Assembly (NCBI RefSeq): GCF_020529025.1
Contig: NZ_JACNMM010000010.1
Coordinates: 62,001-126,000 of the forward strand
Direction: 5' to 3'
Origin: Oceaniglobus trochenteri
Lineage (GTDB): Bacteria; Pseudomonadota; Alphaproteobacteria; Rhodobacterales; Rhodobacteraceae
Length of the DNA stretch: 64,000 nucleotides
The position numbers and the translations under genes were made by a program. Within the stretch, counting starts at the first letter, position 1. Each line of letters opens with the position of its first letter. Under the pieces are notes generated by a model, which saw only the letters and a list, made by a program, of their open reading frames with translations, was not told the origin of the DNA and made no database searches. Shown piece after piece: positions 32,488 to 57,839 of the stretch.

Positions 32488-32532
32488 TGGCGGACCCAAG
32501 AGGATTCGAACCTCTGGCCTCTGCCTTCGGAG
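32488..32532 (-). pseudogene. 3' half of a split tRNA-Arg(CCG) gene (left island junction)
   Basis: On the minus strand this is nucleotides 33-77 of a tRNA-Arg(CCG): anticodon loop CTCCGAA, 3' anticodon arm GGCAG, T arm AGAGG-TTCGAAT-CCTCT, acceptor TGGGTCC, G and CCA. The matching 5' half is at 57798-57839: its acceptor GGACCCA and anticodon arm CTGCC pair with this half. Together they make a perfect 77-nt cloverleaf. The 10-nt word shared by both halves (GCCTTCGGAG on the plus strand, 32523-32532 and 57798-57807) is the crossover core. Confidence 0.9.
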
Positions 32533-32661
32533 CAATTAATCGTGGCCTATCCGAAATGCGCGACGCAGCACGCCACGGCACGCTAACATCTTAAAATCGC
32601 TTGTGTTTAAGTTCGCTCGTCGTCGAAACCAGTAGCCGCAACTACTCCGTAGCTTTCGCCC

Positions 32662-32685
32662 GACTGCTTACGTGGTGCTTACGCG
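32662..32685 (+). repeat. Integrase arm-type repeat, left copy
   Basis: Two TGCTTACG units (GACTGCTTACG, then GTGCTTACGCG). The same word with two changed bases is at 57675-57698. It lies 27-50 bp before the integrase start codon, the usual place for arm sites in attP next to int. The stretch 32533-32700 between the core and the integrase holds no gene. Confidence 0.55.
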
Positions 32686-32711
32686 GCTCAGTTGCTCTGA
32701 TGACGAGGTTG

Positions 32712-32831
32712 ATGATGCCAAAGATCACAAAACGGCTGGTTGAAAGCGTCAAGAGCCAGAAGAAGGACTACGTTGTCTGGGACAGCGACCTGCCTGGCTT
32801 CGGGTTGCGTGTTTTCGCTTCTGGGACCTAA
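32712..32831 (+). pseudogene. Truncated tyrosine recombinase (P4-type integrase), N-terminus only
   Basis: Only 39 codons remain: MMPKITKRLVESVKSQKKDY, then VVWDSDLPGFGLRVFASG. This is the arm-binding (DUF4102-like) N-terminus of P4/Bordetella-type tRNA integrases. The frame ends with ACC TAA where the family continues into the SYVVQYR-type strand. The catalytic domain is absent. Its end coincides with the antisense 3' end of the ImmA gene, so one deletion probably joined the two truncated genes. Confidence 0.8.
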
Positions 32832-33468
32832 GCGCCGCTTTGCTGGGCTTCGCCCAATGGGCGAATCCCTCATTCGACACCACCATGATTGCCCGCGTCT
32901 CGGTGTATTCGAGCCAGCGCAGAATCGTCGCTGTCAATGAAACGCCATAGCGCTTTGCCAGTCGACCGAGCGCTTCGAAATCGGCGCGAGCCTTGGCTGG
33001 CAGTTGGCGACGAAAGTCATGAAATGGCATCAGCAACGCGGCGGCGAACTCGTCTGCATCCTGCTCGATGCCGGATCCGTCGCGCCGAACCACCGCGTTC
33101 TCGTCACAATAGATGCCGCCGTCGTAACGCCCATCCTCTTCAATCAACTGGCGGTGCAGCACGTAGTGGGCGAACTCGTGCCCCACGGTGAACGAGCGAC
33201 GTCCATCAGACTGACCTGCATGGTACATGATCGCCCATTGGCGCGGCCGCGCCTCCCCATAGACCAGCGCGCCGACGCAGCCCGGGATGTTACGCTCGAC
33301 GACCTCGTGGATGGGACTGTCCGGCGCGACCTGACGAGAATACTCCAGCGCGAGGCCGATCACATCGACCGGCGCTCGATCAAACCGATCCGCTCCAAGG
33401 ACCAGGTCGAGCATTTGCGTGATGCGGGCCGCCTCCTTCAACGGCTGGAGGCGGATCCGCTCGCTCAT
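32749..33468 (-). CDS. ImmA/IrrE-family metallo-endopeptidase, probably C-terminally altered
   Basis: A 239-aa protein with the zinc site HEFAH (residues 97-101) and the downstream acidic segment EQDADEFAAALLMP. ImmA peptidases cleave or inactivate a partner XRE repressor to switch on mobile-element or defence genes. The partner is the adjacent XRE gene, whose stop overlaps this start (ATGA). From about residue 213 the protein is read from the antisense of the integrase stump (QKRKHATRSQAGRCPRQR), so the normal C-terminus appears lost through a deletion. Activity is uncertain, though the catalytic core is complete. Confidence 0.82.
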   Translation of the reverse strand: MSERIRLQPLKEAARITQMLDLVLGADRFDRAPVDVIGLALEYSRQVAPDSPIHEVVERNIPGCVGALVYGEARPRQWAIMYHAGQSDGRRSFTVGHEFAHYVLHRQLIEEDGRYDGGIYCDENAVVRRDGSGIEQDADEFAAALLMPFHDFRRQLPAKARADFEALGRLAKRYGVSLTATILRWLEYTETRAIMVVSNEGFAHWAKPSKAALRSQKRKHATRSQAGRCPRQRSPSSGS

Positions 33469-33785
33469 TTGCGGGTCTTCGTGTCGAGGATGCGAGCCAT
33501 CTCGCGAATCTGCCGGCGCGTTTCTTCCGGGAGGCCGCTGTACTGCCGGAAGAAGGCGGTGTCCTCCGCCTCGCTGAGGGTCTGCGTGTCAGCCCCGATT
33601 AGGTAGTCGACGGTCACCCCCAAGGCACCAGCAATTGCGGACAGCTTCTCGGCCGATGGCCTGGGCGGATTCTTGTTCTCAAGTTCCCAGATGTAGCTCT
33701 TCGATGAGCCGGTCTCCTGCGCAAGCTGATCGAGCGTCAGGCCCTTTTTCGTTCGTAAGTCCTTGATTCGCTCACCAAATTTCAT
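33465..33785 (-). CDS. XRE-family (HTH_3) transcriptional regulator
   Basis: A 106-aa protein. Residues 5-62 form a Cro/C1-type helix-turn-helix (RIKDLRTKKGLTLDQLAQ, then SKSYIWELENKN), followed by a short tail (GLPEETRRQIREMARILDTK). The ATG at 33785 was chosen because the HTH begins there. It is co-transcribed with the ImmA gene and divergent from the CBASS operon, with promoters that overlap in the 185-bp gap. Probable repressor of one or both promoters and target of the ImmA peptidase. Confidence 0.88.
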   Translation of the reverse strand: MKFGERIKDLRTKKGLTLDQLAQETGSSKSYIWELENKNPPRPSAEKLSAIAGALGVTVDYLIGADTQTLSEAEDTAFFRQYSGLPEETRRQIREMARILDTKTRK

Positions 33786-33820
33786 AACCGGCCCTTCTAC
33801 TCGATCCGCCCCAACCCTGC

Positions 33821-33887
33821 GTTCGGAGTAGCTATATTCTATGTCCCTTGACAGACGCATTCAAGCTTCCCATCTTGTTCGGAGTAG
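33821..33887. promoter_or_regulatory. Overlapping divergent promoters with repeated operator-like words
   Basis: Plus strand, toward CBASS: TTGACA (33848-33853), 17 bp, CATCTT (33871-33876). Minus strand, toward the XRE gene: TTGAAT (33864-33859), 17 bp, TAGAAT (33841-33836). The 11-bp word GTTCGGAGTAG occurs twice, at 33821-33831 and 33877-33887. Each copy lies just downstream of one -10 box, over the predicted start site. A CTACTC inverted copy is at 33797-33802. This fits binding by the XRE protein. Confidence 0.6.
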
Positions 33888-33970
33888 ACGCACTTAGATT
33901 CATATCATCCCGAACATCGCGCGGGCGGTGGCGAGATGCACAGACGCAGCAGCCCGCCACGGAGATCGAT

Positions 33971-35218
33971 GTGAACATTCAACTTGCGCCGACTGGCCTC
34001 AATCCCTTCGACGACCCTCTCGACCGCATCCTTGCCGAGATCGCGCTCAGCGTTCAGTTGCCGCCCTCGCTGCATGACAAGGCGAAGTCGCGTTACGAGG
34101 CGGTGCGGCGCCATCTCGCGGCCACGACGGCCTTCTTCGACCAGATCGAACACTTCTACCCGCAGGGCTCCATGGCGATCGACGCCACGATCTCGACGCG
34201 CGGCACCGACGACGAATATGATCTCGACATCGTCTCGCAGGTCGGCGGCCGCTTTCGTGGCATGACGCCTCTCGAAATCCTCACCGAGCTCGAAGCCGCC
34301 CTCGCCGACTATCCGGTCCAGCGGGTGTTGCGGCAGACGCGCTGCGTCACCCTGTTCTACGCCGACAAGATGCATCTCGACGTCACGCCGTCGTTGCGTG
34401 TCTACGGCACGCTCGATCGCGAAAGCCTGATCACTCACGCCAAGGGCCCGCGCTGGTCGGCCGACGACCGGTTCGTCGACATGAACGCCTATGGTTTCGC
34501 GCAGTGGTATGCGAGCAGGACGCCGCTCGAACTTCGCATGGCGAAGGAATTCCATCGGCGGTGGCTTGACCATGCCGGTCTTGCCGCTCGCGCCGACGCC
34601 GATGTGGATGATGTTCCGGATCAGTGCGATTTCATCGTCAAGAACACCGCGACGCTCGCCCTCCAGCTCCTCAAGCGCTTTCGCAACATTCGCTACGCGA
34701 GCTACACCGGCCGCATCCCGCCGTCGGTGATGCTCTCCTACTACGCCGGGCTCGCCGCGCAGCCGAACATGTCGCTCAGCGCCATGCTCGTTCGCCTTGC
34801 GAGCTGGATCATCCGCGACATCGAGCAGGCTTCGCTCTACAGGCGGCTTCTGCATGTCGCCAATCCGATCTGCGAGACCGATGTCTTCACGGACCGCTGG
34901 CCCGAATCCATCGCTCAACAGGACGAGTTCGCCGGGCATCTGCGCGAGCTCATCCGTTCGCTCGAGGCGATGCGCAAGGGGGAGATGTTCCCCGACACGA
35001 TGATGGACACGCTGCGCGGGAACTTCGGGGACCGCGTCGTGACCCGGGCCGCCGACCAGATCGCCACCGAGCTCGGCGGCGGCATCCAGCAATCCCGTCA
35101 GCTCTACACGCGACGCGGCGGCCTCCTGTTGCCTTCTGCCGCTGCGGTCGCGGCGCCGATGGTCAATCCGGCGGTTTCGGTGGCACGGCCTCACACCTTC
35201 TTCGGGCGCAAGATCTGA
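33971..35218 (+). CDS. CBASS CD-NTase (cyclic oligonucleotide synthase)
   Basis: A 415-aa nucleotidyltransferase of the cGAS/DncV-like (SMODS) fold. The active site is complete: GSMAIDATISTRG (Gly66-Ser67), Asp84 and Asp86 in DDEYDLDIV, and Asp137 in MHLDVTPS. On phage infection such enzymes make a cyclic di- or trinucleotide that activates the effector. The GTG at 33971, with GGAG 6 bp upstream, is the likely start; the frame extends to a TTG at 33848 but that is the -35 box. The stop overlaps the E2-like gene (TGATG). Which nucleotide is made cannot be told from sequence. Confidence 0.88.
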   Translation: MNIQLAPTGLNPFDDPLDRILAEIALSVQLPPSLHDKAKSRYEAVRRHLAATTAFFDQIEHFYPQGSMAIDATISTRGTDDEYDLDIVSQVGGRFRGMTPLEILTELEAALADYPVQRVLRQTRCVTLFYADKMHLDVTPSLRVYGTLDRESLITHAKGPRWSADDRFVDMNAYGFAQWYASRTPLELRMAKEFHRRWLDHAGLAARADADVDDVPDQCDFIVKNTATLALQLLKRFRNIRYASYTGRIPPSVMLSYYAGLAAQPNMSLSAMLVRLASWIIRDIEQASLYRRLLHVANPICETDVFTDRWPESIAQQDEFAGHLRELIRSLEAMRKGEMFPDTMMDTLRGNFGDRVVTRAADQIATELGGGIQQSRQLYTRRGGLLLPSAAAVAAPMVNPAVSVARPHTFFGRKI

Positions 35219-35670
35219 TGACAGCGGCGATCCTCTCCATCGACGAGCAGGTCGCCGCGATGAAGGCGGCCTGGCCGCAGTTCGCGGCGCGCCGGATCGA
35301 TCGCCGCGCGCAGTCCGCGCGGTGGGTGGGGAGCGTGAGACCGCAATATGCGAACTACTCGCTGGAGATCCGCTATGAGGTCGGGTCGTTCCCCGAGGTG
35401 CGCGTACTCTCACCCAAACTGGTTCGGTTGCCCGGCAATTCCGAGGGCCAGCTGCCCCACGTCTATCCGCCGGCCGAGGATCCGACCCTTTGCTTGTTCG
35501 ACCCCCGTGAAAGGGAATGGACAGCGGCGATGACAATCGCGAGCACGACCGCCCCTTGGGCGCTCGACTGGCTCGCTTGCTACGAACTTTGGGTGATGAC
35601 CGGGCGCTGGACCGGCGGCGGGCGCCACGCCGGACAGGACATCGGCGAGGCAAGGGAGACAACACGATGA
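35218..35670 (+). CDS. CBASS E2-like ubiquitin-conjugating-fold protein
   Basis: A 150-aa protein between the CD-NTase and the patatin, overlapping both neighbours by a few bases. It has the E2-like order of a beta-sheet (NYSLEIRYEVGSFPEVRVL), a Pro-rich turn (LPHVYPPAEDPTLCLFDP) holding the candidate catalytic Cys, and a C-terminal helical part (APWALDWLACYELWVMTGRW). No E1 or JAB gene is present, which is the type II-short CBASS arrangement. By analogy it would modify or prime the CD-NTase. Assignment rests on position and on the Cys motif. Confidence 0.75.
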   Translation: MTAAILSIDEQVAAMKAAWPQFAARRIDRRAQSARWVGSVRPQYANYSLEIRYEVGSFPEVRVLSPKLVRLPGNSEGQLPHVYPPAEDPTLCLFDPREREWTAAMTIASTTAPWALDWLACYELWVMTGRWTGGGRHAGQDIGEARETTR

Positions 35671-36701
35671 ACTATGTTCCGCCGCGGCGATCGGACGGCA
35701 CAATCCAGCACGCGCGTCTGAAGCAGCCATGGCCACAGGGCCGCCCGTTTCGTATTCTGTCGATCGACGGCGGCGGAATTCGTGGCGTCTTTCCTGCAGC
35801 CGTCCTGGCCGAACTCGAAAGCCGCTTCCTGGGCGGCGCGTCCATCGCCAATCACTTCGACATGATCGCGGGCACGTCGACGGGCGGCATCATCGCGCTC
35901 GCCCTTGCCCATGGGATGACGGCTCGACAGGCATTGAACATCTATCTCGAGCGCGGCGACCGCATCTTTCCGCCAGCGGCTGGGCTCGGCAAGGTGTCGA
36001 GGGCGCTGCGCTGGGTGTTCAAGCCGAAGCACGACCAGGCCGCCCTCAAGGATGAGCTGCTGCGGATCTTTGGTGACAAGGTGCTCGATGATGCCATCAC
36101 CCGGCTGGTGATCCCCAGCTTCGAAGGGCGCCACGGCGAGCCGTTCCTCTACAAGACGCCACACCACCCGGACTACCAGAAGGACCGCCACAAGAAGTTC
36201 GCGCATGTGGCGCTCCACACAACGGCGGCCCCGTCCTATTACCCCGGCGTCGAGGACGATGGTTACGTCATGATCGATGGCGGCATCTGGGCCAACAATC
36301 CGGTCATGAACGCCCTGGTCGACGCCCTCGCCTGTTTCGACATTGCGCGCGAGGACGTGCGTATCCTGAGCCTGGGCACCGGTGAGTCCACCTTCTCTGT
36401 CGATGAGCGGGCGCGCAACGGCGGCATCAAGGATTGGGCGTTCCTGCGCTCCTTCAATGCGGCCGCCCGTGCGCAGTCCCGCAATGCCCTCGGCCAAGCC
36501 TATCTGCTGGTCGGCAAGAACAACGTCACACGGATCGATGTGCCGGAAAGCGATGCGCCGATCGCGATGGATGACGTGCAGCGCTCCGTCCGGGAACTGC
36601 CGATGGTGGCGCGCAGTCTCGTCGAAGGCGCAGGGCATCACATCGAGCGCATGTTTCTCGACGGCGCGGTCGAGCAATTCATCCGCTGCCCGATGACGTA
36701 G
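35667..36701 (+). CDS. capV: CBASS effector: patatin-like phospholipase (CapV-like)
   Basis: A 344-aa patatin. The oxyanion loop is DGGGIRGVF (residues 34-42), the nucleophile Ser71 is in GTSTGG and the dyad Asp204 is in DGGIWANNP. In known systems CapV is activated by the cyclic nucleotide and degrades the inner membrane, killing the infected cell. It is the third gene of the operon, its start overlapping the E2-like stop (ATGA), with a GGGAG ribosome-binding site. The ATG at 35667 excludes an unlikely 50-codon upstream extension. Confidence 0.9.
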   Translation: MNYVPPRRSDGTIQHARLKQPWPQGRPFRILSIDGGGIRGVFPAAVLAELESRFLGGASIANHFDMIAGTSTGGIIALALAHGMTARQALNIYLERGDRIFPPAAGLGKVSRALRWVFKPKHDQAALKDELLRIFGDKVLDDAITRLVIPSFEGRHGEPFLYKTPHHPDYQKDRHKKFAHVALHTTAAPSYYPGVEDDGYVMIDGGIWANNPVMNALVDALACFDIAREDVRILSLGTGESTFSVDERARNGGIKDWAFLRSFNAAARAQSRNALGQAYLLVGKNNVTRIDVPESDAPIAMDDVQRSVRELPMVARSLVEGAGHHIERMFLDGAVEQFIRCPMT

Positions 36702-36723
36702 ACGTCTGGTCGAGCACCAGTCC

Positions 36724-37164
36724 CTACCGGGCCGTAAGCAGACGACAGGCCAGTTCTCGCTCGCCCCAGCGTGTCGAGAAAGTGTCGGAGACCTCGAACC
36801 AGCTTCCGTCATTGCCCATGCCATGATTGGCACCCATGCAGGAACACTGGCATTCGTGCCCCTGTGCTTCTTGGCACGCTCGCGCGCAGATCTCCTGCTC
36901 CCGATAAGGCTGGATGATGTAGACCTTGCCGTAGCGCTGCAGCGCCCGATCGACGAAGTCGTTGAACCAGGATTTCGGCAGCTCCCAATAAGCATGATCG
37001 CCGCCGATCCACTCCGGTGCCGTTCGCCGGCCGTCCTGAAGCCATTGCCGATTGTCGTCAGCAAACGGTAGTCGCACTCGAAGCTTCTCACCACGCCCAG
37101 TCCGGCGCAGTACGACTGGCGTTGTCTTCTGCTTCCAGACGTAGTTGAGGGTGAGCCGCTCCAT
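36724..37164 (-). CDS. Hypothetical protein with cysteine-rich motif
   Basis: A 146-aa protein I cannot name. Residues about 60-80 have WELPKSWFNDFVDRALQRYG, then YIIQPYREQEICARACQEA and GHECQCSCMGANHG. The Cys and His spacing (C-x3-C ... H-x-C-x-C-x-C ... NHG) suggests a metal site. The segment GHEC-x-CSC-x-G-x-NHG recurs in uncharacterised bacterial proteins as I remember them. It is convergent with capV across 22 bp and so is not part of the CBASS operon. The ATG at 37164 is preferred to a GTG six bases upstream. Confidence 0.6.
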   Translation of the reverse strand: MERLTLNYVWKQKTTPVVLRRTGRGEKLRVRLPFADDNRQWLQDGRRTAPEWIGGDHAYWELPKSWFNDFVDRALQRYGKVYIIQPYREQEICARACQEAQGHECQCSCMGANHGMGNDGSWFEVSDTFSTRWGERELACRLLTAR

Positions 37165-37348
37165 GGACACCTTCTCCAGTTCACCGGCCGCCGCGTCGTG
37201 CTCGGCTGAGAATTGATCTTAGCGCGACTGCCGCTCAAGGGCCTGCGCGCAGGCGTCATCCACATTCCCGGCCCGCACATAAACAAGACAAGTAATACTC
37301 CACGATTTTCGCTGGAAAACCAGACCGAAGTCGCATGCCGGAGGATCC

Positions 37349-37486
37349 ATGACCAAAGATGAACTGCTGGAATTACTGAAGGCGCGCAAAGCGTTCATCG
37401 CTCAATGCGCGCGGCCAGGTAAGGCTGATAAAGGTCTCCGCATGCATCCTCGCGCCGCGTCTCCCTGCGCGCGAGTCGCACCATGA
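37349..37486 (+). pseudogene. Short reading frame, probable gene fragment
   Basis: A 45-codon frame starting MTKDELLELLKARKAFIAQC with a strong GGAGG ribosome-binding site 5 bp before the ATG. The first half looks like a real amphipathic helix; the second half (CARPGKADKGLRMHPRAASP) does not. It is most likely the head of a gene whose body was lost. The 368-bp gap 37165-37532 contains nothing else I can identify. Confidence 0.3.
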
Positions 37487-37532
37487 CTCATGCAACGTTT
37501 TCTGCTATTTTGCGTGCGCTGGGGGAAGAAAA

Positions 37533-37742
37533 TTGAATATCACGGAAGACCAAGATGAGGCGACCGAGTCGCCTGCAAAGGTGAAGTCGGTCGCCGCTAC
37601 TCTTCTTGGCGAGTTCTTCGACTCCCTGGAAAAAGAAGAAGGCTTCGGCGAAATAGCGCCCAGGCTTCGCAAGGTTGTTCTCGAAGACGGTGTCTTCGCA
37701 GAACCGTCAATTCGCGCCGCCTTGTTTCCGGACGCCTCATGA
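37533..37742 (+). CDS. Small acidic protein paired with an SMC-like ATPase
   Basis: A 69-aa protein with a TTG start 5 bp after a GGGGGAAG ribosome-binding site. It is acidic (MNITEDQDEATESPAKVKSV) and probably two helices (LLGEFFDSLEKEEGFGEIAP, RLRKVVLEDGVFAEPSIRAA). Its stop overlaps the ATPase start (ATGA), so the two are coupled. Small partners of this kind often precede defence ATPases; the function is unknown. Confidence 0.65.
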   Translation: MNITEDQDEATESPAKVKSVAATLLGEFFDSLEKEEGFGEIAPRLRKVVLEDGVFAEPSIRAALFPDAS

Positions 37743-40195
37743 TCCGGATCGAGAAGATACATATTAAGGAATTTCGCGGTATCCGAGAGCTGACACTTGA
37801 GCTGAAGGGTCAGAACTTCGCCGCCTGCGGACCGAATGGAACCGGCAAGAGCGGGATCGTGGACGCGATCGAGTTCGCTCTGACGGGCAACATCTCGCGC
37901 CTGGCCGGCGCCGGAACCGGAGGTCTCTCTGTCAAGGCGCACGGTCCGCATGTCGACAGCCGTAACAAGCCCGAGACGGCGTCAGTCACCCTGGATGTCA
38001 TCATCCCCTCACTTGGCAACAAGAAGGCCCAGATTCGCCGCACCGTGAAGTCGGCAAGCGCGCCGGAAATTAAGCCCGCAGACAAGGGCGTCATCGCCGC
38101 GTTCGAGAGCGTCAACCTTCACCCAGAGTTCGTCCTTTCACGCCGCGAGCTGATCCGATACGTCCTCTCCGAGCCGGGTCAACGGTCGAAAGAGGTCCAA
38201 TCGCTCCTGCGCCTCGACGACATCGAAAAGTTGCGAGGTGTACTGCAGAAGATAGCCAACGCCTGCACCAAGGACCTCCCGGGGTTGGAGCGCGCGGAGA
38301 AAGACGCCATCACCAACCTTCTTGCTGCACTCGACACCGCGCAGCTCAGCAAGAAATCCGTCCTCGACGCCGTCAATCCGCGACGGGAGTTACTCAGTCT
38401 CCCGCCGTTGACCGACCTCGACGCTAACACCTCAGTAAAGGACGGGCTGACCACCACCGCTGCAAGCGCGCCGGGCTGCGTGCCGAAGGTGCAGGCTGCC
38501 GCAGATCTTTCGACATTGCGAGAAACGCTTCTCGCGCTCCAGGCCGATCCATTCAAGCATGCGTGCTCAACCGCCGACGCGAGCGCCGCGGAACTCGGGA
38601 AGGACGCCGAGAGCCTCAACGGCCTATCGCGCGAGTCCCTCCTGAAGTCGGCGCTGGAGCTGTATGACGGGACCGCCTGCCCGGTATGCGACACGCCGTT
38701 CGAGCCCGACGCCTTCACGGGTCACCTAGCCGGAAAGCTGGCGCACCTCGAAGACGTAAGCAAACGGCGCGCAGCACTCGAAGCTGAACTTAAGCCAATC
38801 CTCGACGCCCTCCATGCCGCTGGCACGGCCCTGAACACCATGATCGATCACGCTGGCATGTTCTCCCCGAAGATCGACGCCACCGCGCTCACCGAGTTCA
38901 GGACCGTTCTTCGAGGACGATACCTGCAGCTTCAAAAACTCCTGCCGCTCGATGATACACGCGCGGTCCTATCGGCGGCTCACAGCATCTCGGACATGGA
39001 GCCATCGCTGGCCGCGCTTGCCGCTGCGATTGCTGCGATACCAGAACCCACCAAGCAGGATGCGGCGCGCGACTTCCTCGTTCTCGCGCAGGAGCGGCTG
39101 GAGACCTACCGAACCGCGCGGCTCAGGTTCGCGGCCGGCAAGGTTCGTGCGGACCGCGCCACAAAGGTCTTCACCAGCTATGGCACCGTGACGACGACCG
39201 CCCTCGAAAAGATCTACAAGAACGTCGAGACTGCTTTCGCAGGCTACTACAGCAAGATCAACGAGGACGACGAGAAGGCGTTCACCGCGAAGCTTATGCC
39301 CTCGATCGGCAAACTCGGCTTCGATGTGGACTTCTACGGCCGCGGCCATTTCCCGCCCGTGGCGTACCATAGCGAGGGCCATCAGGACGGAATGGGGCTC
39401 TGCCTGTATCTCGCGCTCATGAACTATCTGCTGGGTGGAAACTTCACGTTCGCGGTCCTCGACGACGTGCTGATGTCCGTCGACGCTGGCCACCGCCGTC
39501 AGGTCTGCACCCTCATCAAGGAGATGTTCCCCAACACACAGTTCATCTTCACGACGCATGACGAAATCTGGCTGCGCCACATGAAGTCCGAGGGTCTCAT
39601 CAAGGGGCGCAACTTTGCCCACTTCCGGACCTGGACGGTTGATTTTGGACCGACCGAGTGGGACGATCGCGACGTCTGGGCGGAGCAGGAAAGCTACCTC
39701 GCCAAAAACGACGTCCGCGCCGCTGCCGGTCTGCTTCGCCACTACCTCGAGCATTTCGCAAAAGAAGCGTGTGATCGCCTGCGGGCAAATGTCGAATTCC
39801 GCGGTGATGCCCAGTTCATGCTAGGCGATCTTCTTCCGAACGCGACCAGCTCGCTGGGCGAACTCCTCAAGAAGGCCAAGGTCGCTGCCAACTCTTGGAA
39901 CCAGAAGGATGTCGTTGAGCGGATCAGCGCTATCGAGGTCGCGTTCGGTGAAGCCAAGACCAAGACCGGTTACGAGAATTGGCAGATCAACACTGCCGTC
40001 CACTTCAACGAATGGGCCGACCTCAAGAAAGAGGATTTCGCCCCCGTGGTAACGGCGTTCCGCGCATTCACTAGCGCTTTCGGCTGCAATACATGCAACG
40101 AGATGTATTTCGTTGCTCCCGACCGTGGCAAGAAGGAAGCGCTACGGTGCGGATGCGGATCCTTAAATCTCAATCTTTTGCAGAAAGGCGGTTAG
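37739..40195 (+). CDS. Rad50/SMC-like AAA ATPase with zinc-hook and C-terminal zinc ribbon
   Basis: An 818-aa protein. Walker A is GPNGTGKS (31-38). A CPVC hook motif (Cys314, Cys317) lies between helical arms (about 150-310 and 330-480). The ABC signature region is YHSEGHQDGMGLCLYLAL, Walker B is FAVLDDVLMSVDAGHRR and the H-loop is FTTHDEIW. A C-terminal CNTC ... CGC ribbon may bind zinc. Arms are short compared with Rad50. No nuclease is fused or adjacent, so it is not SbcCD. Its location between CBASS and other defence genes suggests a defence role, but it does not match Lamassu, Septu or Gabija gene sets as I know them. Confidence 0.78.
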   Translation: MIRIEKIHIKEFRGIRELTLELKGQNFAACGPNGTGKSGIVDAIEFALTGNISRLAGAGTGGLSVKAHGPHVDSRNKPETASVTLDVIIPSLGNKKAQIRRTVKSASAPEIKPADKGVIAAFESVNLHPEFVLSRRELIRYVLSEPGQRSKEVQSLLRLDDIEKLRGVLQKIANACTKDLPGLERAEKDAITNLLAALDTAQLSKKSVLDAVNPRRELLSLPPLTDLDANTSVKDGLTTTAASAPGCVPKVQAAADLSTLRETLLALQADPFKHACSTADASAAELGKDAESLNGLSRESLLKSALELYDGTACPVCDTPFEPDAFTGHLAGKLAHLEDVSKRRAALEAELKPILDALHAAGTALNTMIDHAGMFSPKIDATALTEFRTVLRGRYLQLQKLLPLDDTRAVLSAAHSISDMEPSLAALAAAIAAIPEPTKQDAARDFLVLAQERLETYRTARLRFAAGKVRADRATKVFTSYGTVTTTALEKIYKNVETAFAGYYSKINEDDEKAFTAKLMPSIGKLGFDVDFYGRGHFPPVAYHSEGHQDGMGLCLYLALMNYLLGGNFTFAVLDDVLMSVDAGHRRQVCTLIKEMFPNTQFIFTTHDEIWLRHMKSEGLIKGRNFAHFRTWTVDFGPTEWDDRDVWAEQESYLAKNDVRAAAGLLRHYLEHFAKEACDRLRANVEFRGDAQFMLGDLLPNATSSLGELLKKAKVAANSWNQKDVVERISAIEVAFGEAKTKTGYENWQINTAVHFNEWADLKKEDFAPVVTAFRAFTSAFGCNTCNEMYFVAPDRGKKEALRCGCGSLNLNLLQKGG

Positions 40196-40308
40196 TCGCG
40201 GCCAACTAACGGATTTATCGGCGGGCTTCCCGAATCCATGGCAACCTGTTTGTTTGACCCCCTCTAGAATCCAAGAATAACCGTCATTTCAAGATCGCTT
40301 CGACCACA

Positions 40309-40441
40309 ATACTGCGCTGCCGTCAGGTGGCATACCCCCTCGTTGACCAAGTTGCGAACTTGCTTCTGTCCTCCCGAATGGCCGTTGTTGCAAGGTTGCT
40401 GCGATTGCCATGCCGCGCTGCCATCAGTCGGCTTCCCGCCC
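40309..40441 (-). repeat. Left member of an inverted repeat pair flanking a debris region
   Basis: Read on the minus strand, GGGCGGGAAGC, CTGATGGCAG, GCGGCATGGC and CGCA-CAAC (40394-40441) are followed about 100 bp later by CCTGACGGCAGCGCAGTAT (40309-40330). The same words in the same order and spacing are on the plus strand at 44529-44670. The surrounding gap 40196-40630 contains no gene I recognise. Confidence 0.5.
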
Positions 40442-41640: not shown

Positions 41641-41642
41641 CA

Positions 41643-41873: not shown

Positions 41874-41888
41874 TCTGAGCGATCCCGT

Positions 41889-50199: not shown

Positions 50200-50202
50200 C
50201 CC

Positions 50203-50730: not shown

Positions 50731-52400
50731 TGTACGGTCCCCCCGCCATGAGGCTCCGGGAAGTCGAAGCGAGGCAGTTCCAGCATCGCGTCGCCCTCGC
50801 GAGAGAAAAGATCAGCCTGATCCTTCATCCATTCCAACATGAAGCTCCCGGCGCTGGCGTCGCGGAACTCCACCACCCCGGGCAGGCGAAGGCGCTCGAT
50901 GTCGCCCTTCGCGCCTCGCTCCAGTTCGATCACCTCCGAAATCCTGCGGATATCACTCACGAAGTCCAGGACCACCACTTTGTCTTTGGTCGGACTTGTA
51001 CGCAGGCCTCGCCCCAACTGTTGCACGAAGATTCTGCGACTATGGGTCACTCGCATGAACGCGATGAGGTCGACGTCAGGCACGTCCACGCCCTCGTTGA
51101 AGAGATCGCGGGTCGTGACCAGGTCGAGGGCCCCACTCCTGAAACGGGCCATCACCTCGTCACGTTCGCGAGCGGACATCTCACCGGTGATGGCCTCGCA
51201 GCGTAGACCGAAGAGCCCCAGCATCGCCGCGAAGCTTTTTGCGTGCAAAACGGTGGAGCAAAACACGATACCGGACCGGCGGGCTTCGGCGTCGAACACC
51301 TCCCTGATCCTGCGGGCGGCCTCCTCGTCGCGAGTCGGCAGCAGCAAACGCTTGTTCAACTGCGTGATCGAATATGCGTTGCGGGATTGATCACGCACGA
51401 GTTGCCAATCGATGTCGTCGGCGAACATGCGGTAGTCGGCCTCGCACAGAAAGCCGCGCTTCAGCCCTTCCGCGATTCCTACTCGAATAACGGGAGGCCC
51501 TAGAAGTGTGTCGATGTCATAGCCGTCCCCTCGCCAGGGTGTCGCGGTGACGCCGCCAATCATGGAATCCACCATGCGATCGGTTACTTGGCGGAAGGTG
51601 TCGGAGCCCACATGATGCGCCTCGTCGATCAAGACGAGCCCGAAGTCCGGAAGCTCGTCGAGCCGAGCGACCGCGCTCTGAACGGTCGCGAAGGTTATCC
51701 CCTCCCAGAACGCCGGCGTCTCGCCTCCGATCAGGCGATGGGTCGGGATTGATTTCGGTAGCTGATCCCAGAACGCGCGTTGCAACTGGTCCACGAGTTC
51801 GCGTGTTCCGGCCAACACAAGGGCTCTGCCATCCGGGATACGCGCGTCCGCGAAGAGACGCGCGGTCGCCTCCGACATCACCACGGTCTTGCCGAGACCT
51901 GTGGCGAGCACGACCTGCCCCCTACCCGTCTCCCGAAGCGCGCCCACGAAAAGCTCCACGGCGCTTTCCTGATAGTCCCTCAGATCTCTGCGCGCTGGTG
52001 GGAATTCCGGGCTCTTTTGGGCCATTGCGAGGAGTGTCGCAGGTTCAAGAACCCCGATCTTCAGACCAAGTTTGCCCCAGCGTTCAATGGCGGAGCGTGT
52101 CGCGGGGCCCGCAGGGCGAGAGGTCGCCACATACATGCGCGATGCGCGGTAGAAGCGCCCCGCCTCGGCGACCTCGTCCACTGCGGCGGCCGCCGCGTAA
52201 CCATTTGTGGTGAACTTACATTGGATGACCCAGAGTTCGCCATTCTTCCGACCCAAAACATCCGCGCCGCGATCGCCGGACCCACCCACAACCCGAACAT
52301 CCTGGAAACCATTGCAGATCAACAGCCGAGCGACATCACGCTCGAAGGCCTGCCAAGGCCCTTTCAGTAGTCGTCTGGCATCCAGAAAGGCGTCCGTCAT
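50727..52400 (-). CDS. Mrr-type nuclease fused to DEAD/DEAH superfamily II helicase
   Basis: A 557-aa protein. The N-terminal PD-(D/E)xK domain (about 15-125) has FERDVARLLICNGFQDVRVV, Asp47 in GDRGADVLG and the QCK motif (60-62). The helicase follows: motif I ATGLGKTVV, motif II DEAHH, motif III TATPW, motif V-like RDLFNEGVDVPDVDLIAF and motif VI QQLGRGLR. The combination suits an ATP-driven restriction enzyme. It overlaps the GHKL gene upstream and the unknown gene downstream by 4 bp each. Confidence 0.86.
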   Translation of the reverse strand: MTDAFLDARRLLKGPWQAFERDVARLLICNGFQDVRVVGGSGDRGADVLGRKNGELWVIQCKFTTNGYAAAAAVDEVAEAGRFYRASRMYVATSRPAGPATRSAIERWGKLGLKIGVLEPATLLAMAQKSPEFPPARRDLRDYQESAVELFVGALRETGRGQVVLATGLGKTVVMSEATARLFADARIPDGRALVLAGTRELVDQLQRAFWDQLPKSIPTHRLIGGETPAFWEGITFATVQSAVARLDELPDFGLVLIDEAHHVGSDTFRQVTDRMVDSMIGGVTATPWRGDGYDIDTLLGPPVIRVGIAEGLKRGFLCEADYRMFADDIDWQLVRDQSRNAYSITQLNKRLLLPTRDEEAARRIREVFDAEARRSGIVFCSTVLHAKSFAAMLGLFGLRCEAITGEMSARERDEVMARFRSGALDLVTTRDLFNEGVDVPDVDLIAFMRVTHSRRIFVQQLGRGLRTSPTKDKVVVLDFVSDIRRISEVIELERGAKGDIERLRLPGVVEFRDASAGSFMLEWMKDQADLFSREGDAMLELPRFDFPEPHGGGTVQ

Positions 52401-54727
52401 TCCAAATCCACATCCGGCTTCATGAGACGGAGGGAGCAGGTCGCTCGAATGATCTCGTCGCGGTTCGCCGTCTCAAGGTCGCGAGAGGACTGGTTCGCCA
52501 ACCAGAGCGTATCGCCCAGATAGGCCTCATAGCGTGAGACGAGACGACGCCGAGCCTCCTCATCGATATGGTCAGCGCCAAAACTCAAGGTCTCATAGGG
52601 GTCCGACCAATACTTGCCATCGAAGAACAGTTCTGGATGCCGAGTGAAGGTCGCGACGACCGCCTGAGGATCCATATATTCCCAGAAACGGCCTTCGGAA
52701 ATCACCTTGGGCACATCCACGACCCCGCGCGCCGCCATTCTTCGCGCCACATGCTCCCGATCGGGCTTCGAGAGCTCGGCGTAATATGTTTGGCCTTGAC
52801 CCTCCGGGATCAGGTTCGCCACCGCCTTCGCGAACTCCTCGAGGCCCGTGTTCGCCATCGATATGACTTCGGACGGCTCCAACCGTGTCGCGCTGGCGTA
52901 GCTCGAGCGGTAATCGGCGAGAATATTCGCCAGCGTCACGTCATGCACCTGACCTTTCAGGAAATCCAGGGTCTGCACAGAGAGCTCAGTCAATAGCGCG
53001 TCCATAGCGGTCATCGTAGTCGACCGAAACACGTCATGGGTTGGGTTCATCACAAACGCGTAGGTTCGGGTCGCCACGTCGTCGAGTTCAAACGACCAGG
53101 GAAGACTACCCGTGAGCGCCTTGTCAGTTGGCTCCGAGGCGAAGGCTTCCACTTGGAACTCAACTCGGTAAGTCGGGTGCACGTATTTGCGCGATAGCTC
53201 ATGGATTTGATTGCGCTCGGCTGGCGGCTCCGCCGGTTCCGGCTCCGGCAAGACGTCCGCGCCATCGGTATCACCCTGCGAGCCGCCGCTGGTCGACCCG
53301 TCCTCCCCATCGTCGAGGAAGCCGTCAGGAAGGTCGGTGTCGCCACTCTCCCCCAAAATTTCCTTGTCCTGCTCCTCGACCAGCTTCCACCACCGCTCGT
53401 CGTCAAGATAGTCGGCGTCGTTCTCATAGAACGACTGGGCCATCTGCTCGGATCGATCGTTGTCTTTGACCACGAGTACCCTCGACCAAAGGCCGTTTTT
53501 GCCTTGCGGACTGGAGCGTCGGAACGCCTGGAATAACTTGTAGAGAGGGCTGGGGTTTCCGTCGAAGCCACTTTGCTTCGCCGCTTGCGGCCGCAAGGGG
53601 CCCTCTCCCCTGACGACTCGGACCATCTCCTCCCAAGACGGGTCGTCCCTCTCGAAGCGATCTTTAGTGTAGCTGACACGGCAATGGTCAAGATGAACCT
53701 CTCCCACAAAACGACCGCGGCTCCGCGGATCGTCAATCGGATACTCGATCTCCGCATTGTCCCCGTTGTTCCAAGCGAAAAGGTCTTTCGAGCCGATCTC
53801 GATCTTGCGGCCGTTTCGAACGAAGTCGATACCGAAGTCTGATTTGTGCAGATAGCGTTGGAGCCCAACCCATCCCCTCACCCGGCGTTCCGTAGTCACG
53901 ATCTCGCAATTTGGACCACCGTTGGGGCATTGCTCCTCATCGCCGCTCAAGGCCCGCATGCAATGCGTGCAATACCTCCGCGGCGCGAGCGCGACGTCGA
54001 ACCGCTCGACCGCGTGGACAACCGTCCCGTCGCTCAGCTCCACCGAACGGTCGGGATCCCAGTGACAATGGCGCCTGGGTTCCAGCTTCGTTCCGTTCAC
54101 CTTCAGTCTGATCCGGCCCGCCTCGGATTCGCGCAAGATCGCGGAATAGGCGCGCGCGAGATGCTTGCGGATCGTTCCGAGATTGGCCGATCGCGCGAGA
54201 TAGGCGCGCTGATCGGGCTTCAGCTTCGTGATGATGATTTCGGTTCCGTGCTGGGTGTGGTTCGGCTTCACCCGTGTTTGTCGCGGTGTTTTGTAGCTCT
54301 GGCTCGCCCGAAGCCCCTCGAGGTCGATGCGCACACCGACCCATTCCGGCTCGCCTGCGCGCGTGGTCCAAACCTCGGTTACCGTGCCGAGCCGCGCCGT
54401 GGCGATGTTGAAACCCATGCCGAACAGCCCGAGATTGGTCAGAGGGTTGTTCCCCGACCAACCAGCTCGCACCGCGCGCTCCAGCACATCGATCGCCATG
54501 CCTGGACCGTTATCCCGGATGGAGAGACGCGCGTCGCTCTTGTTCGACGTCGGGATCGTGATCGTGATTTCAGGATGGTCTATCGGCGTGCCCGCTCGAG
54601 CCGCCCCGACGAAACCGTCAATGCTGTTGTCGATCAGTTCCGCGACGCAACGCCATTGATGAAGATTGATCTCACCGAGCATCTGCAAGACGCGGGCGTC
54701 GGGAGTGAGATCAAATTCTTGAGTCAT
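52397..54727 (-). CDS. GHKL ATPase related to MutL/MORC (paraMORC-like)
   Basis: A 776-aa protein. The GHKL ATP site has the N-box ELIDNSIDG (Glu30, Asn34), G1 RDNGPGMA (71-78) and G2 LGLFGMGFN (99-107). An S5-like transducer region with a CTHC ... CPNGGPNC cysteine cluster (about 255-280) follows, then an acidic linker (GESGDTDLPDGFLDDGEDGS) and a long C-terminal domain. Prokaryotic MORC/paraMORC proteins are known from gene neighbourhoods to accompany helicases, nucleases and methylases in restriction-modification loci, as here. Probably a DNA-topology-sensing clamp. It is not MutL: no MutL C-terminal endonuclease motif. Confidence 0.85.
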   Translation of the reverse strand: MTQEFDLTPDARVLQMLGEINLHQWRCVAELIDNSIDGFVGAARAGTPIDHPEITITIPTSNKSDARLSIRDNGPGMAIDVLERAVRAGWSGNNPLTNLGLFGMGFNIATARLGTVTEVWTTRAGEPEWVGVRIDLEGLRASQSYKTPRQTRVKPNHTQHGTEIIITKLKPDQRAYLARSANLGTIRKHLARAYSAILRESEAGRIRLKVNGTKLEPRRHCHWDPDRSVELSDGTVVHAVERFDVALAPRRYCTHCMRALSGDEEQCPNGGPNCEIVTTERRVRGWVGLQRYLHKSDFGIDFVRNGRKIEIGSKDLFAWNNGDNAEIEYPIDDPRSRGRFVGEVHLDHCRVSYTKDRFERDDPSWEEMVRVVRGEGPLRPQAAKQSGFDGNPSPLYKLFQAFRRSSPQGKNGLWSRVLVVKDNDRSEQMAQSFYENDADYLDDERWWKLVEEQDKEILGESGDTDLPDGFLDDGEDGSTSGGSQGDTDGADVLPEPEPAEPPAERNQIHELSRKYVHPTYRVEFQVEAFASEPTDKALTGSLPWSFELDDVATRTYAFVMNPTHDVFRSTTMTAMDALLTELSVQTLDFLKGQVHDVTLANILADYRSSYASATRLEPSEVISMANTGLEEFAKAVANLIPEGQGQTYYAELSKPDREHVARRMAARGVVDVPKVISEGRFWEYMDPQAVVATFTRHPELFFDGKYWSDPYETLSFGADHIDEEARRRLVSRYEAYLGDTLWLANQSSRDLETANRDEIIRATCSLRLMKPDVDLE

Positions 54728-54866
54728 TTTTTTCCACCAAGCAGTACACGTCGTTCATGAAATAATTGAATTGATAGCGTGAAAAAAGCGCGACATCACA
54801 ATCGCCTTGAAAAATCACCGATCAGCCTTTCGGGGGAGGAGCGATTTTCAAGAATTTGAGTTCTTG

Positions 54867-55640
54867 CTAAGATCGGGCGATCAACGTGCCGCTCGGGAAA
54901 CGCCGATCGTCATTTTTGTAGCAGATGACATGGCTCGGAAGCGCCGTCGCATGCCATCCCGAGGGAAGTGCGGCGATGCAACGCTCAAGTACCTCGCGTG
55001 TCGTGATGTCAGGTCGCGGAATATCAACTTCGCTAGTTTCAAAATCTGGCTCGAAGGAATTTCGGGACGTCGCGTTCGGGCGCTGGAAGCGTAGCAGGAA
55101 GGGAAGGCCATCCTTGAGCTGCTGCATGACGTCCGCGACCGACTGTTTTCCAACTTTGAACTCAACGAAACAGTGATCCAAACGGATAGGATGCTGGGTG
55201 TCGAAATGGTCTGGTTTGTATGTCGTAGTATCTCGTTGTTGCCCGGGATCGTTCGAGCCAAAGCCGGAATGGTTCCAAGGGAGCTTCCCTTCCCCGCCAT
55301 AGTGCGAGATCAAGGCTGCTTCGAGATCCATGGCAGCAAAGACGAATATTCGTATTGCCTTGAAGTGAATATCGCCCGGGCTGATGTACTGCCTACCATC
55401 CAACTTGCGCATGTGGCGGGTCAGCCGGTTCAGCAGGCCTTTCGAGCTTTCTGCTTTGCCAATATAGAGTAGTTCTCCCGTCACGCTGGAGCTAAGAGCA
55501 TAAACGCCCGGCGCGTCCGAGACGCGCGTCAGGTTCAGGGCGGTAAGTTCAGCAGAATTCATCCCGTCAAGGAGGGCAACAATGTCCCTCAATAGGGCTC
55601 TTGGCAGATCAAATTCGAGCTCTGCATAGCCGTCGCTCAT
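54867..55640 (-). CDS. GIY-YIG restriction endonuclease, Eco29kI-like
   Basis: A 257-aa protein. GIY-YIG core: PGVYALSS (Tyr47), ELLYIGKAE (Tyr59), the Arg in LLNRLTRHM, Glu107 in DLEAALISHYG and Asn123 in PWNHSGFGSNDPG. The SGFGSNDPG-x-x-RD stretch matches Eco29kI, a GIY-YIG type II enzyme that cuts CCGCGG. Its start overlaps the stop of the C5 methyltransferase gene (ATGA), the usual R-M pairing. A 139-bp gap separates it from the GHKL gene; nothing recognised lies in that gap. Site specificity is inferred and needs testing. Confidence 0.8.
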   Translation of the reverse strand: MSDGYAELEFDLPRALLRDIVALLDGMNSAELTALNLTRVSDAPGVYALSSSVTGELLYIGKAESSKGLLNRLTRHMRKLDGRQYISPGDIHFKAIRIFVFAAMDLEAALISHYGGEGKLPWNHSGFGSNDPGQQRDTTTYKPDHFDTQHPIRLDHCFVEFKVGKQSVADVMQQLKDGLPFLLRFQRPNATSRNSFEPDFETSEVDIPRPDITTREVLERCIAALPSGWHATALPSHVICYKNDDRRFPSGTLIARS

Positions 55641-56851
55641 ACAGTCTCCGCCATGTCCAATTTTTTAGCGACGCTGTCTCCAACCACGCGCGCCAATTCG
55701 GCGGGCACGGCGTTCCCGAGTTGACGCATGCTTTCGCTCCACGACCCGTGGAATCGATAGTCATCGGGGAACGTCTGCAGTCGGGCGGACTCCCGAACGG
55801 TGAAGTAGCGAACGAAACCATCCGCACGACGAAGCATGTTTTCTCCACCAGGCACTCCGTGCACGCCTGCCTTCAGAGTCTTCGAGGGTTCGTCCAAATG
55901 GCTGCCAGTGTGCCCCTTGTAGCTGCGGGCGCCAGGCTGGAAGCGGTGATCATGAAAGGCGGTGGCACGCTGCGTGTGTCGCGGATCGGGCAAATCCCCG
56001 ATCGCGTCGCGCGTTGTCCGCCAAGGCTTTCCTTCGGGCTTCTCGTCTCGGGACATTCTCGCCGCTATCTGCGCAGCGCGTCCCTCCAGCTCACGATGGG
56101 GTTTGGGCACCTCATGGCGATCCCAATAGTCGCCGTAAATTTGGTCCCAAATCAGCGCGCGCTGATTGAACTCACCCTCTCCAAAGCTCCAGCACGCGTC
56201 CACATCATCGCGAAATCCAACGAACAATACCCGCTCACGACGTTGCGGCACACCATAGTTGGCGGCGTTTAGTAGCTTCGTGACCACGTTGTAGTGGAGG
56301 CCGGGCCGGCGGGTTGAGGTGTGATGTTGCTGCAGACGGGCCAAGTGTCCCTGCCAAGCCTCTTCGTCGCGGGCCAATAGCTCCGGATGCTCAAGCTGTA
56401 GCTGCACATAAGAGAAATAGTCCGCGAAGGCGGCACGGGTGAGGCCTTTCACGTTTTCGAAGATGAATGCCTTCGGCCGTGCCTCTCTTACCGCGCGAAC
56501 AGCTTGCGGAAACATGTCTCTCGCGTCGTCATATGCACGATGCCGCCCCCCCAAGCTGAAGGGTTGGCATGGCGGTCCACCGGAAATCAGATCAAGAGCG
56601 CCTTCGTGGGCCGTGAAGTCTACGGAGCGTACATCGCCCTCAATCACATTCCAGGCGCACATGTCCGCAGGATCGGCGCCATCCAGAACGCCATGGTTTT
56701 CGCGTAACGTGTCACAACACCACCGATCATACTCGACGACCGCTTTAGGGATGAATCCAGCCTGCGCCAGTCCGATGCCCAAACCGCCCGCTCCGGCGAA
56801 GAGTTCGATCGAAGCACGTTGCCTCGTGATATTCGCCAGTTCGATAGACAT
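55637..56851 (-). CDS. DNA (cytosine-5-)-methyltransferase
   Basis: A 404-aa C5 methyltransferase with all main motifs in order: I ELFAGAGGLGIGLAQAGF (about 16-33), IV GGPPCQPFSLGGR with catalytic Cys95, VI ENVKGLTR, VIII QRRERVLFVGFR, then a target-recognition region (about 215-320) and IX/X YFTVRESARLQTFPDDYRFH, GNAVPAELARVVG. First gene of the operon methyltransferase, GIY-YIG, GHKL, nuclease-helicase, unknown, PIN. It protects host sites from the linked nuclease. The alternative recognition class (Dcm with Vsr) is unlikely: no vsr gene is present. Confidence 0.92.
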   Translation of the reverse strand: MSIELANITRQRASIELFAGAGGLGIGLAQAGFIPKAVVEYDRWCCDTLRENHGVLDGADPADMCAWNVIEGDVRSVDFTAHEGALDLISGGPPCQPFSLGGRHRAYDDARDMFPQAVRAVREARPKAFIFENVKGLTRAAFADYFSYVQLQLEHPELLARDEEAWQGHLARLQQHHTSTRRPGLHYNVVTKLLNAANYGVPQRRERVLFVGFRDDVDACWSFGEGEFNQRALIWDQIYGDYWDRHEVPKPHRELEGRAAQIAARMSRDEKPEGKPWRTTRDAIGDLPDPRHTQRATAFHDHRFQPGARSYKGHTGSHLDEPSKTLKAGVHGVPGGENMLRRADGFVRYFTVRESARLQTFPDDYRFHGSWSESMRQLGNAVPAELARVVGDSVAKKLDMAETV

Positions 56852-57576
56852 GTTGACACCTGACTCCGTTTTCTCGTGTTAGACCAGATGGCACGCTGTG
56901 GATCAAGGCTGCCAAGTCAAGATATAGAGCAGAACCCTAAGATTTCCTCAATAACTAGCACCCCACACTACGTTACCGCCACATACCTTCTGATCACCCA
57001 CCAACGGGGTAGACGGAACGGACCCCAACTCCCACCTGCTCCTCGACGACGCATGTCGAAAGACTCCCTTGTCAGAACAGGTCGAACAGTCACGTGTCGG
57101 CAGTCGCCTCCGTCCGGAAACCGCCCCCTAAACATGATAGCAGAGAGCGCCAATCGAAAGCACACGAAACCGTCGAACGTTAAGAGCTCGCGCCGCCTTT
57201 TCGTCTAAGTTTCGCGAACGCCTTCCAGAGGTTTCTGAAGGAAAATCGCATTCGTTCACTGCCGCAGGCACTGTGTCGATGATCCCGCCATAGAAACGTG
57301 CGCAGGCAACACGAAACACCTTGGCTAACTAGGTGAGCACGACGCACTCCAGCGGCGCCTTCCCCCGCCAAACCAACCCACCACTCTTGACACCCCAACC
57401 TCACTCTCGCTCTTAAGCGGGAACCTAAAAGCGCGACAGCGACCCTTGAGGCCCTCTTCCGGATGCCCCCAGCCGATAGGAAATAGGAGAAGCAGAAAGC
57501 CTCCCCATCCAGTCGCGGTACACGACCTTAAGTTAGAGTCGACAATCAGACCAACATCTTGGAATTTCGAGGTTAA
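56852..57576. other. 725-bp region without a supported gene
   Basis: Upstream of the methyltransferase. It must contain that operon's promoter. Several short frames exist on both strands but none has family motifs or a good ribosome-binding site. The base composition is visibly more AT-rich than in the operon. Probably decayed island sequence. Confidence 0.4.
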
Positions 57577-57653
57577 TGGCGCACCCATCAGGATTCGAAC
57601 CTGAGGCCTTCGCCTTCGGAGGGCGACGCTCTATCCAGCTGAGCTATGGGTGC
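57577..57653 (-). tRNA. tRNA-Arg(CCG), complete, inside the island
   Basis: A 77-nt cloverleaf on the minus strand: acceptor GCACCCA/TGGGTGC, D arm GCTC/GAGC, anticodon stem TCGCC/GGCGA with loop CTCCGAA (anticodon CCG), variable AGGCC, T arm TCAGG-TTCGAAT-CCTGA, discriminator G and encoded CCA. It differs from the split tRNA-Arg(CCG) in acceptor, anticodon-stem and T-stem pairs, each with the matching change on the other side. So it is a separate functional-looking gene, and could replace the interrupted one. Confidence 0.93.
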
Positions 57654-57674
57654 GCAGTAGAACCGTCAGGCCCT

Positions 57675-57698
57675 GACTGCTTACGCAGTGCTTACGCG
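57675..57698 (+). repeat. Integrase arm-type repeat, right copy
   Basis: Two TGCTTACG units (GACTGCTTACG, then AGTGCTTACGCG); 22 of 24 bases match 32662-32685 in the same orientation. It lies 100 bp from the right core and 22 bp upstream of the complete tRNA-Arg, where it would overlap that tRNA's promoter. Confidence 0.55.
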
Positions 57699-57797
57699 AC
57701 TTCTCCAGCCTTTAAATCGAAAAACGATCTGCTCGGCAAGAGCTTGGTATCACGTATCTTTCTTAGTCCTCTTCATCACGGCATCCCCTTGACATCA

Positions 57798-57839
57798 GCC
57801 TTCGGAGGGCAGCGCTCTATCCAGCTGAGCTATGGGTCC
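57798..57839 (-). pseudogene. 5' half of the split tRNA-Arg(CCG) gene (right island junction)
   Basis: Minus strand: acceptor GGACCCA, D arm GCTC-AGCTGGATA-GAGC, anticodon arm CTGCC and loop CTCCGAA, then GGC. These are nucleotides 1-42 of the tRNA whose remainder is at 32488-32532. After nucleotide 42 the sequence (TGATGTCAAGGGGATGCC) is not tRNA, so the gene was not restored on integration. Confidence 0.9.

Follow-up and report, generated by a model that had tools for sequence, protein, structure and literature searches.

An island of an alphaproteobacterial family splits a tRNA-Arg(CCG) gene and carries a complete copy with a different anticodon stem

When a genomic island enters a tRNA gene, the tRNA is expected to be restored: in the accessible sections of the Islander description (PMC4383910), integration leaves one regenerated gene and one displaced fragment, and the accessible text of a review of tyrosine recombinases (PMC8371274) gives the same account of restoration, adding that the stem-loop suits the core sites of an integrase. 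Here we describe a 64,000-nucleotide stretch of Oceaniglobus trochenteri (contig NZ_JACNMM010000010.1, positions 62,001 to 126,000; hereafter the window) in which an island splits a tRNA-Arg(CCG) gene, the resident, and carries a second, complete tRNA-Arg(CCG), the spare, at its right end. The island is probably a decayed element of an alphaproteobacterial family that splits tRNA-Arg(CCG) without restoring it and carries a complete copy with an altered stem, a putative rescue that its own integrase would recognise poorly.

Several described systems share part of this layout. The tycheposons of Prochlorococcus likewise carry cargo and a tyrosine recombinase, and a tRNA gene marks their border. 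Those of Methylophilaceae (PMC10872708) resemble the island in cargo, tyrosine recombinase and border tRNA gene, while a split resident with a separate spare is not described in the accessible sections of that paper. The Islander islands with an anticodon-centred attP (PMC4383910, in the same sections) have in common with it an anticodon-loop crossover, a tyrosine integrase by the attachment site and a split target; here, in contrast, neither half is completed, and the element supplies a complete gene of its own that is not identical to the target. The integrase of Sinorhizobium meliloti psymB USDA1157 (49.6% identity; loci L152, L155 and L156) lies beside the 3' part of the same isoacceptor; unlike the window, that element has one intact tRNA and one 3' fragment, with no 5' half found, which is apparently the ordinary restoring layout. 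The single-copy tRNA-Arg of S. meliloti pSymB, likewise outside the main chromosome, is reported as one of two essential pSymB genes and moved there with engA from the chromosome, according to the title of diCenzo 2013 as cited in the same source (PMC4207669); unlike the window's spare, it is not described as belonging to an island in the excerpted text. By analogy, the engineered Cleave-and-Rescue (ClvR) drives are the closest design to this family: as presented in the accessible part of PMC7951863, they inactivate an essential gene and provide its rescue, a linked copy that is recoded and resistant. ClvR is, however, engineered and cuts with a nuclease, whereas here integration itself disrupts the gene and we infer resistance from sequence only. 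Our literature searches returned no description of an island family in which a separate complete tRNA replaces the one that is split.

The first-pass annotation of the window had claimed that a tRNA-Arg(CCG) gene is split in the anticodon loop, that neither island end restores it and that a different complete tRNA-Arg(CCG) lies inside the island, and all of this was borne out. The two halves lie exactly where it had placed them (Table 1) and share a 10-nt core, CTCCGAAGGC, which spans the anticodon loop and reaches into the first bases of the stem. Joined at this core, they give a 77-nt gene typed as tRNA-Arg(ccg) by ARAGORN, with 7/7 acceptor pairs and 5/5 anticodon-stem pairs (12/12 together). 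Inspection of both junction sequences revealed no rebuilt tRNA gene at either: the sequence beyond the 5' half, TGATGTCAAGGGG..., is not tRNA, and neither half alone was called as a tRNA in the window by ARAGORN or by Rfam at its gathering score. The insertion within a tRNA gene and the common core at both ends are those of a tRNA-targeted island, while an attP-borne piece of tRNA that rebuilds the target was not found, and relatives have the same layout. Conventional restoration of the target was rejected, given the absence of a rebuilt gene at either junction and a shared core of 10 bp.

ARAGORN and Rfam both recover the spare. It stands on the same strand as the broken 5' half, at 186 nt from core to core, and departs from the rejoined resident gene in three stems (acceptor, anticodon and T), its anticodon stem being TCGCC/GGCGA as against CTGCC/GGCAG. 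We also searched the whole genome (4.59 Mb in 33 contigs, listed as 100% complete) for further tRNA-Arg(CCG) genes. Rfam gave 40 tRNA matches, with CCG (the spare), TCT, ACG and CCT as arginine genes, in a list that is incomplete, as a tRNA-Tyr gene adjoining one listed gene is absent from it. The stronger test, BLAST with the spare, returned the spare, the two resident halves and tRNA-Arg(CCT) only, and no second intact tRNA-Arg(CCG) was found by either the BLAST search or among the 40 typed Rfam matches. In such a tRNA set, CGG would be read solely by the CCG anticodon; in seven chromosomal genes of the flanks, this codon accounts for 34 of the 161 arginine codons.

Comparison with relatives assigns the spare to the island. 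Among 394 genomes of the family, a 147-nt probe taken from the spacer upstream of the spare had matches in 13, including the window's own, and in ten of these the match covered just 22-29 nt of the repeat. In two genomes of other genera, G007 and G267, the spacer is 99% identical and the spare behind it is the same, and the right end with its spare is 98-99% identical across the three genera, behind resident 5' halves that start with GCACCCG in G007 and G267 and with GGACCCA in the window. Within the genus, five other genomes were compared, of which G001, G005 and G003 were informative: G001 and G005 have a single CCG gene, intact, after sufS, as the first-pass annotation had foreseen for island-free relatives, while G003 has a split gene and a spare with a right end unlike the window's. 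The same right end and spare behind different resident halves, together with the single gene in G001 and G005, thus attach the spare to the island. No 5'-half-like sequence was seen in the 459 nt upstream of 30 inspected tRNA-Arg(CCG) genes with a CTGCC or TTGCC stem strand (hereafter target-type; 30 of 133 class-wide matches). Set against these 0/30, the recurrence in two other genera places the junction and spare beyond chance.

It is very improbable that the host had two adjacent tRNA-Arg(CCG) genes, one of which the island entered, as would be suggested by the location of both genes within 0.3 kb on one strand. Relatives already holding a second tRNA beside the first were not encountered in G001 and G005, and tRNA-Arg(CCG) is present in 14 of 29 relative loci around sufS, of which 12 inspected loci are intact and show no further 5' half over 460 nt of upstream sequence. 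This explanation was rejected on the single gene of G001 and G005, the conserved spacer and spare, and the differing resident halves. A split tRNA-Arg(CCG) with a spare also occurs in G003 (L089) and G018 (L092) with quite different right ends and 122-140 nt from core to core; these are possibly other integrase types with the same trick.

The layout recurs throughout the integrase family. A scan of 84,980 species genomes for the integrase gave 313 relatives, the best 80 of which were analysed; they come from Rhodobacteraceae, Hyphomonadaceae, rhizobia, sphingomonads, acetic acid bacteria and others. A tRNA-Arg(CCG) 3' half lies at most 450 nt upstream of the integrase in 75 of the 80 loci, the others being L163 and L219 (where the upstream sequence was just 173 and 154 nt long), L192, L193 and L228. 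We then searched 39 genomes, from 40 of the 80 loci, for the 5' half and spare: at least 35 of them have a complete spare behind a resident 5' half, both on one contig and one strand and ~165-312 nt from start to start (29 pairs seen in sequence and six from coordinates alone). The 5' half was seen in sequence at 27 of 30 spare loci, in G423 at another locus and in G446 in a further stretch; G446 also has an additional 3' half 1.4 kb after its spare. The earlier claim that the island destroys a tRNA and supplies a spare is thereby supported well beyond the window, and a gene destroyed with its replacement supplied is the architecture of a Cleave-and-Rescue design.

Stem pairing was examined in 34 elements with both halves (29 of the 39 genomes, the window's own genome, G267, G330, G180 and G374). 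Resident halves rejoin with 12/12 stem pairs in 32 of the 34 (11 in G422 and 10 in G374, a chimera), and the spares have 12/12 in all 34. Halves exchanged between genomes reach 12/12 in 397 of 1,122 combinations, and hybrids within an element do so in 0/34 cases for spare 5' with resident 3' and in 12/34 for resident 5' with spare 3'.

For the anticodon stems, the 34 elements were complemented with G007, G195, G027, G370, G125, G249, G413, G003 and G018 to give 43 resident-spare pairs. The 5' stem strand of the residents is CTGCC in 25, TTGCC in 8, TCGCC in 6 and CCGCC in 4, that of the spares TCGCC in 14, CCACC in 12, TCGGC in 9, CCGCC in 5 and a single type in each of three, so that target-type stems are found in 33/43 residents vs 0/43 spares. 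The changes in the spares are paired, with pairing preserved, and the strands are identical within a pair only in G027, the other 42 replacements differing from the resident at the attacked site; 17 identical pairs would be expected if spare stems came from the resident pool. Over the stem, spares differ from residents by 1.97 mismatches vs 0.71 among residents, an order that is reversed over nucleotides 1-27 (0.85 vs 1.16). In 289 genomes of the class, an intact target-type gene was found in 132, other listed stems in 22 (three of them behind a 5' half) and neither pattern in 135. Fisher's test of 0/43 spares against 132/151 class genomes gives 1.7e-28, or 7e-11 with all unmatched genomes taken as non-target and 0.0015 with, in addition, only the 12 distinct spares counted, values that are overstated since the rows are related.

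An alternative reading grants the spare no resistance: any tRNA-Arg(CCG) would compensate, and the stem differences would reflect the lineages of a few captured spares. We regard this as a real possibility, somewhat short of probable. The spares of the 34 elements are of just 12 distinct kinds, TCGCC and CCGCC are shared with ten of the split residents, a shuffle of the pairs shows no significant avoidance (see below), a target-type spare exists on pAtK224b, and tRNAs of the TCGGC type were recombined in G374 and G413. On the other side, the 43 spares have seven stem types, none of which is the commonest target type; their differences are concentrated in the stem while nucleotides 1-27 are more alike than between residents; and the most cautious of the above tests remains at P = 0.0015.

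Our main reading, a non-restoring element with a poorly recognised rescue copy, has further points against it, gathered here. Spares shuffled among residents give 2.4 expected identical pairs vs 1/43 observed (P = 0.24), so the signal lies in the stem types that spares have and not in pair-by-pair avoidance; the 34 elements, moreover, amount to 27 distinct pairs and 12 distinct spares. TCGCC and CCGCC are the stems of 19/43 spares and of 10/43 split residents, and both are thus enterable by some family or other integrase. A TCGGC-type 3' half adjoins the left end in G374 and G413, which means that this type was recombined and suggests, from these junctions, that resistance would not be absolute for it. 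Agrobacterium tumefaciens pAtK224b (L151/L154) has an element at a non-tRNA site with an intact target-type spare. The broken first copy in G454 is target-type, and each of its two right ends is preceded by a target-type 5' half; in this metagenome-assembled genome (L285, 229-637) the two right ends are successive and alike in the printed sequence, and an intact TCGCC spare follows, so that the first spare was apparently hit and then replaced. The integrase of Bradyrhizobium septentrionale pBs1S1a (L153) lies beside a 3' half in a record with no tRNA-Arg match at E <= 0.01. The pair of 5' half and spare was not among the matches listed in G428, G434, G450 and G451 (4/39), and G451 has two intact tRNA-Arg(CCG) copies. 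Finally, the left flank of the island is not beside tRNA-Arg(CCG) in relatives. The idea of a fully immune spare is weakened by the stems common to residents and by G374, G413, G027, G454 and pAtK224b.

The left flank (PPK2-TetR, window 30950-32477) is chromosomal in the genus and located elsewhere in relatives; in G001 it is ~240 kb away from the tRNA on the same contig. This points to a rearrangement at the left side of the island.

How the spare would be expressed admits a further explanation, in which it lacks a promoter and depends on that of the resident gene, with transcription running through the broken 5' half into the spare, so that integration is what switches it on. The same strand and short spacing of the 35 pairs agree with it, as do repeats that end ~4 nt ahead of the spare in G027 and G454, the lack of a terminator-like site in the window spacer and the lack of a sigma-70-like site in the scanned region. 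A consensus scan, on the other hand, did not separate resident from spare, the scores upstream of the two being no different in 33 elements (P = 0.70), a result that also counts against our main reading. In the same 33 elements the residents score slightly above and the spares slightly below their own shuffles, and a promoter of another kind is possible. Such promoter capture could well operate, with our judgement leaning slightly the other way.

In the mechanism that we propose for the family, its tyrosine integrase would recombine within the anticodon loop of tRNA-Arg(CCG), at a short core, with the anticodon stem presumably providing the core sites. Because attachment site and target have only about 10 bp in common, integration does not rebuild the gene and leaves two non-tRNA halves. 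The right end of the element brings a complete tRNA-Arg(CCG) on the same strand, ~165-312 nt downstream as counted from where the broken 5' half starts. This copy would take over CGG decoding, and its stem changes may make it a poorer substrate for its own integrase, a protection of the rescue copy that would be partial. In the window's own genome, where only the first 38 codons of the integrase are left, the island seems unable to leave. More tentatively, and as something we find conceivable without counting it probable, the family could be a selfish element of a natural integrate-and-rescue kind: it would break a single-copy tRNA and put in its place one with a stem rewritten pair by pair and poorly recognised by its own integrase, successive elements overwriting the tRNA-Arg(CCG) of the host.

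The first-pass annotation had further proposed that loss of the island would be lethal and the island therefore addictive, which holds in part. Lethality could follow only from inexact loss, since an exact excision at the two cores puts the resident gene back together, and addiction would protect the right-end ~0.3 kb with the spare, not the cargo. A true addiction module, with split and spare selected so that island loss is lethal, seems unlikely to us: the spare is the sole CCG gene found, CGG is in use in the flanking genes as counted above, and the S. meliloti pSymB tRNA-Arg is reported as essential in the accessible text of PMC4207669, but exact excision restores the resident, deletions within the island would leave the spare, and cargo differs behind the same ends. 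No other member of the integrase family was found in the own genome at E <= 1e-10, and with the integrase a stub, exact excision by the island's own enzyme looks closed; owing to this stub, the host may by now depend on the right end, with the cargo free to change.

The two ends of the island contain repeats with presumed arm-type sites and, on the left, an integrase remnant that stops where similarity to the left end of G267 also ceases, at about 32826 (Table 1). Full-length relatives of ~450 amino acids, with a PHROG integrase match of 2e-60, occupy the left ends in G330, G180, G374 and G413, and the position of a tyrosine integrase beside one end, as a remnant in the window and full-length in relatives, is again that of a tRNA-targeted island. 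The G267 element with the window's ends (G267:C1:2517820-2750090) has its halves ~232 kb apart. In the 77 kb of it that were compared, matches to the island are confined to the left end (339 bp, 95%), the right end (290 bp, 98%) and one 448-bp stretch (95%), and cargo therefore differs behind the same ends. The 448-bp stretch (window 48520-48967) is found in G007 at 90%, and 92 bp of it have another match elsewhere, with 79% identity; it lies within an open reading frame (ORF) of 509 amino acids with no Pfam match, whose neighbouring cargo is not conserved in G007 or G267. Similarity to G330 (69-73%) extends over two further parts of the island, 1,082 and 575 bp long.

The cargo is rich in defence genes, including a pair resembling a cyclic oligonucleotide-based antiphage signalling system (CBASS), namely a CD-NTase and a patatin at 33848-36701. 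As for conjugation genes or a relaxase, the Pfam-scanned ORFs of the island gave a single 211-residue T2SSE match (43691-44326), and as for phage genes, nine window ORFs compared with PHROGs gave one weak terminase-like match (3.4e-5). A 47-nt inverted repeat (40395-40441 and 44530-44576, 87% complementary) flanks ~4 kb of cargo and is possibly formed by the ends of a smaller inserted unit.

Table 1. Features of the split tRNA-Arg(CCG) locus, the island and its right flank (window positions)
Feature	Position	Strand	Remarks
Resident tRNA-Arg(CCG), 3' half (nt 33-77)	32488..32532	-	left junction
Core CTCCGAAGGC, left junction	32523..32532	-	
Island body, 25.3 kb	32533..57797	.	bounded by the two junctions
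Left repeat with TGCTTACGTGGTGCTTACGCG	32659..32688	+	presumed arm-type integrase site; same in G267
Integrase remnant	32715..32831	+	first 38 residues of a ~450-residue tyrosine integrase, then stop
CD-NTase (CBASS oligonucleotide cyclase)	33848..35218	+	PDLC00800, 1.4e-178
Patatin-like phospholipase (CBASS effector)	35517..36701	+	PDLC00757, 1.7e-119
SMC/AAA ATPase	37739..40195	+	best PADLOC match LmuB, 5.2e-18
HNH endonuclease-domain protein	44519..46186	+	
PIN_8-domain protein	49111..50199	-	
Helicase with Mrr-type nuclease domain	50727..52400	-	
GHKL ATPase	52397..54727	-	
Eco29kI-like restriction endonuclease	54867..55640	-	26 bits, under the Pfam cut-off of 30.8
C5-cytosine DNA methyltransferase	55637..56851	-	
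Spare, complete tRNA-Arg(CCG)	57577..57653	-	ARAGORN and Rfam; sole tRNA called in the window
Spacer, resident 5' half to spare (right island end)	57654..57797	-	99% identity in G007 and G267
Right repeat with TGCTTACGCAGTGCTTACGCG	57672..57701	+	presumed arm-type integrase site; also in relatives
Core CTCCGAAGGC, right junction	57798..57807	-	
Resident tRNA-Arg(CCG), 5' half (nt 1-42)	57798..57839	-	right junction
Right flank, class-V aminotransferase	58039..59259	-	named sufS by inference

The restoration rule underlies island-finding software as well as accounts of why tRNA genes are safe targets. As the family breaks this rule, tools may draw the limits of such elements wrongly when they look for a regenerated gene paired with a displaced fragment. 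With attachment sites, integrases and stem variants known from sequence, the question of resistance is directly testable. If the altered stem does hinder the integrase, these elements would be a natural counterpart of cleave-and-rescue designs and would offer a route by which a mobile element takes over a gene of core translation; and if they do integrate and rescue in this manner, an ancestral housekeeping gene would have given way to a succession of genes of mobile elements.

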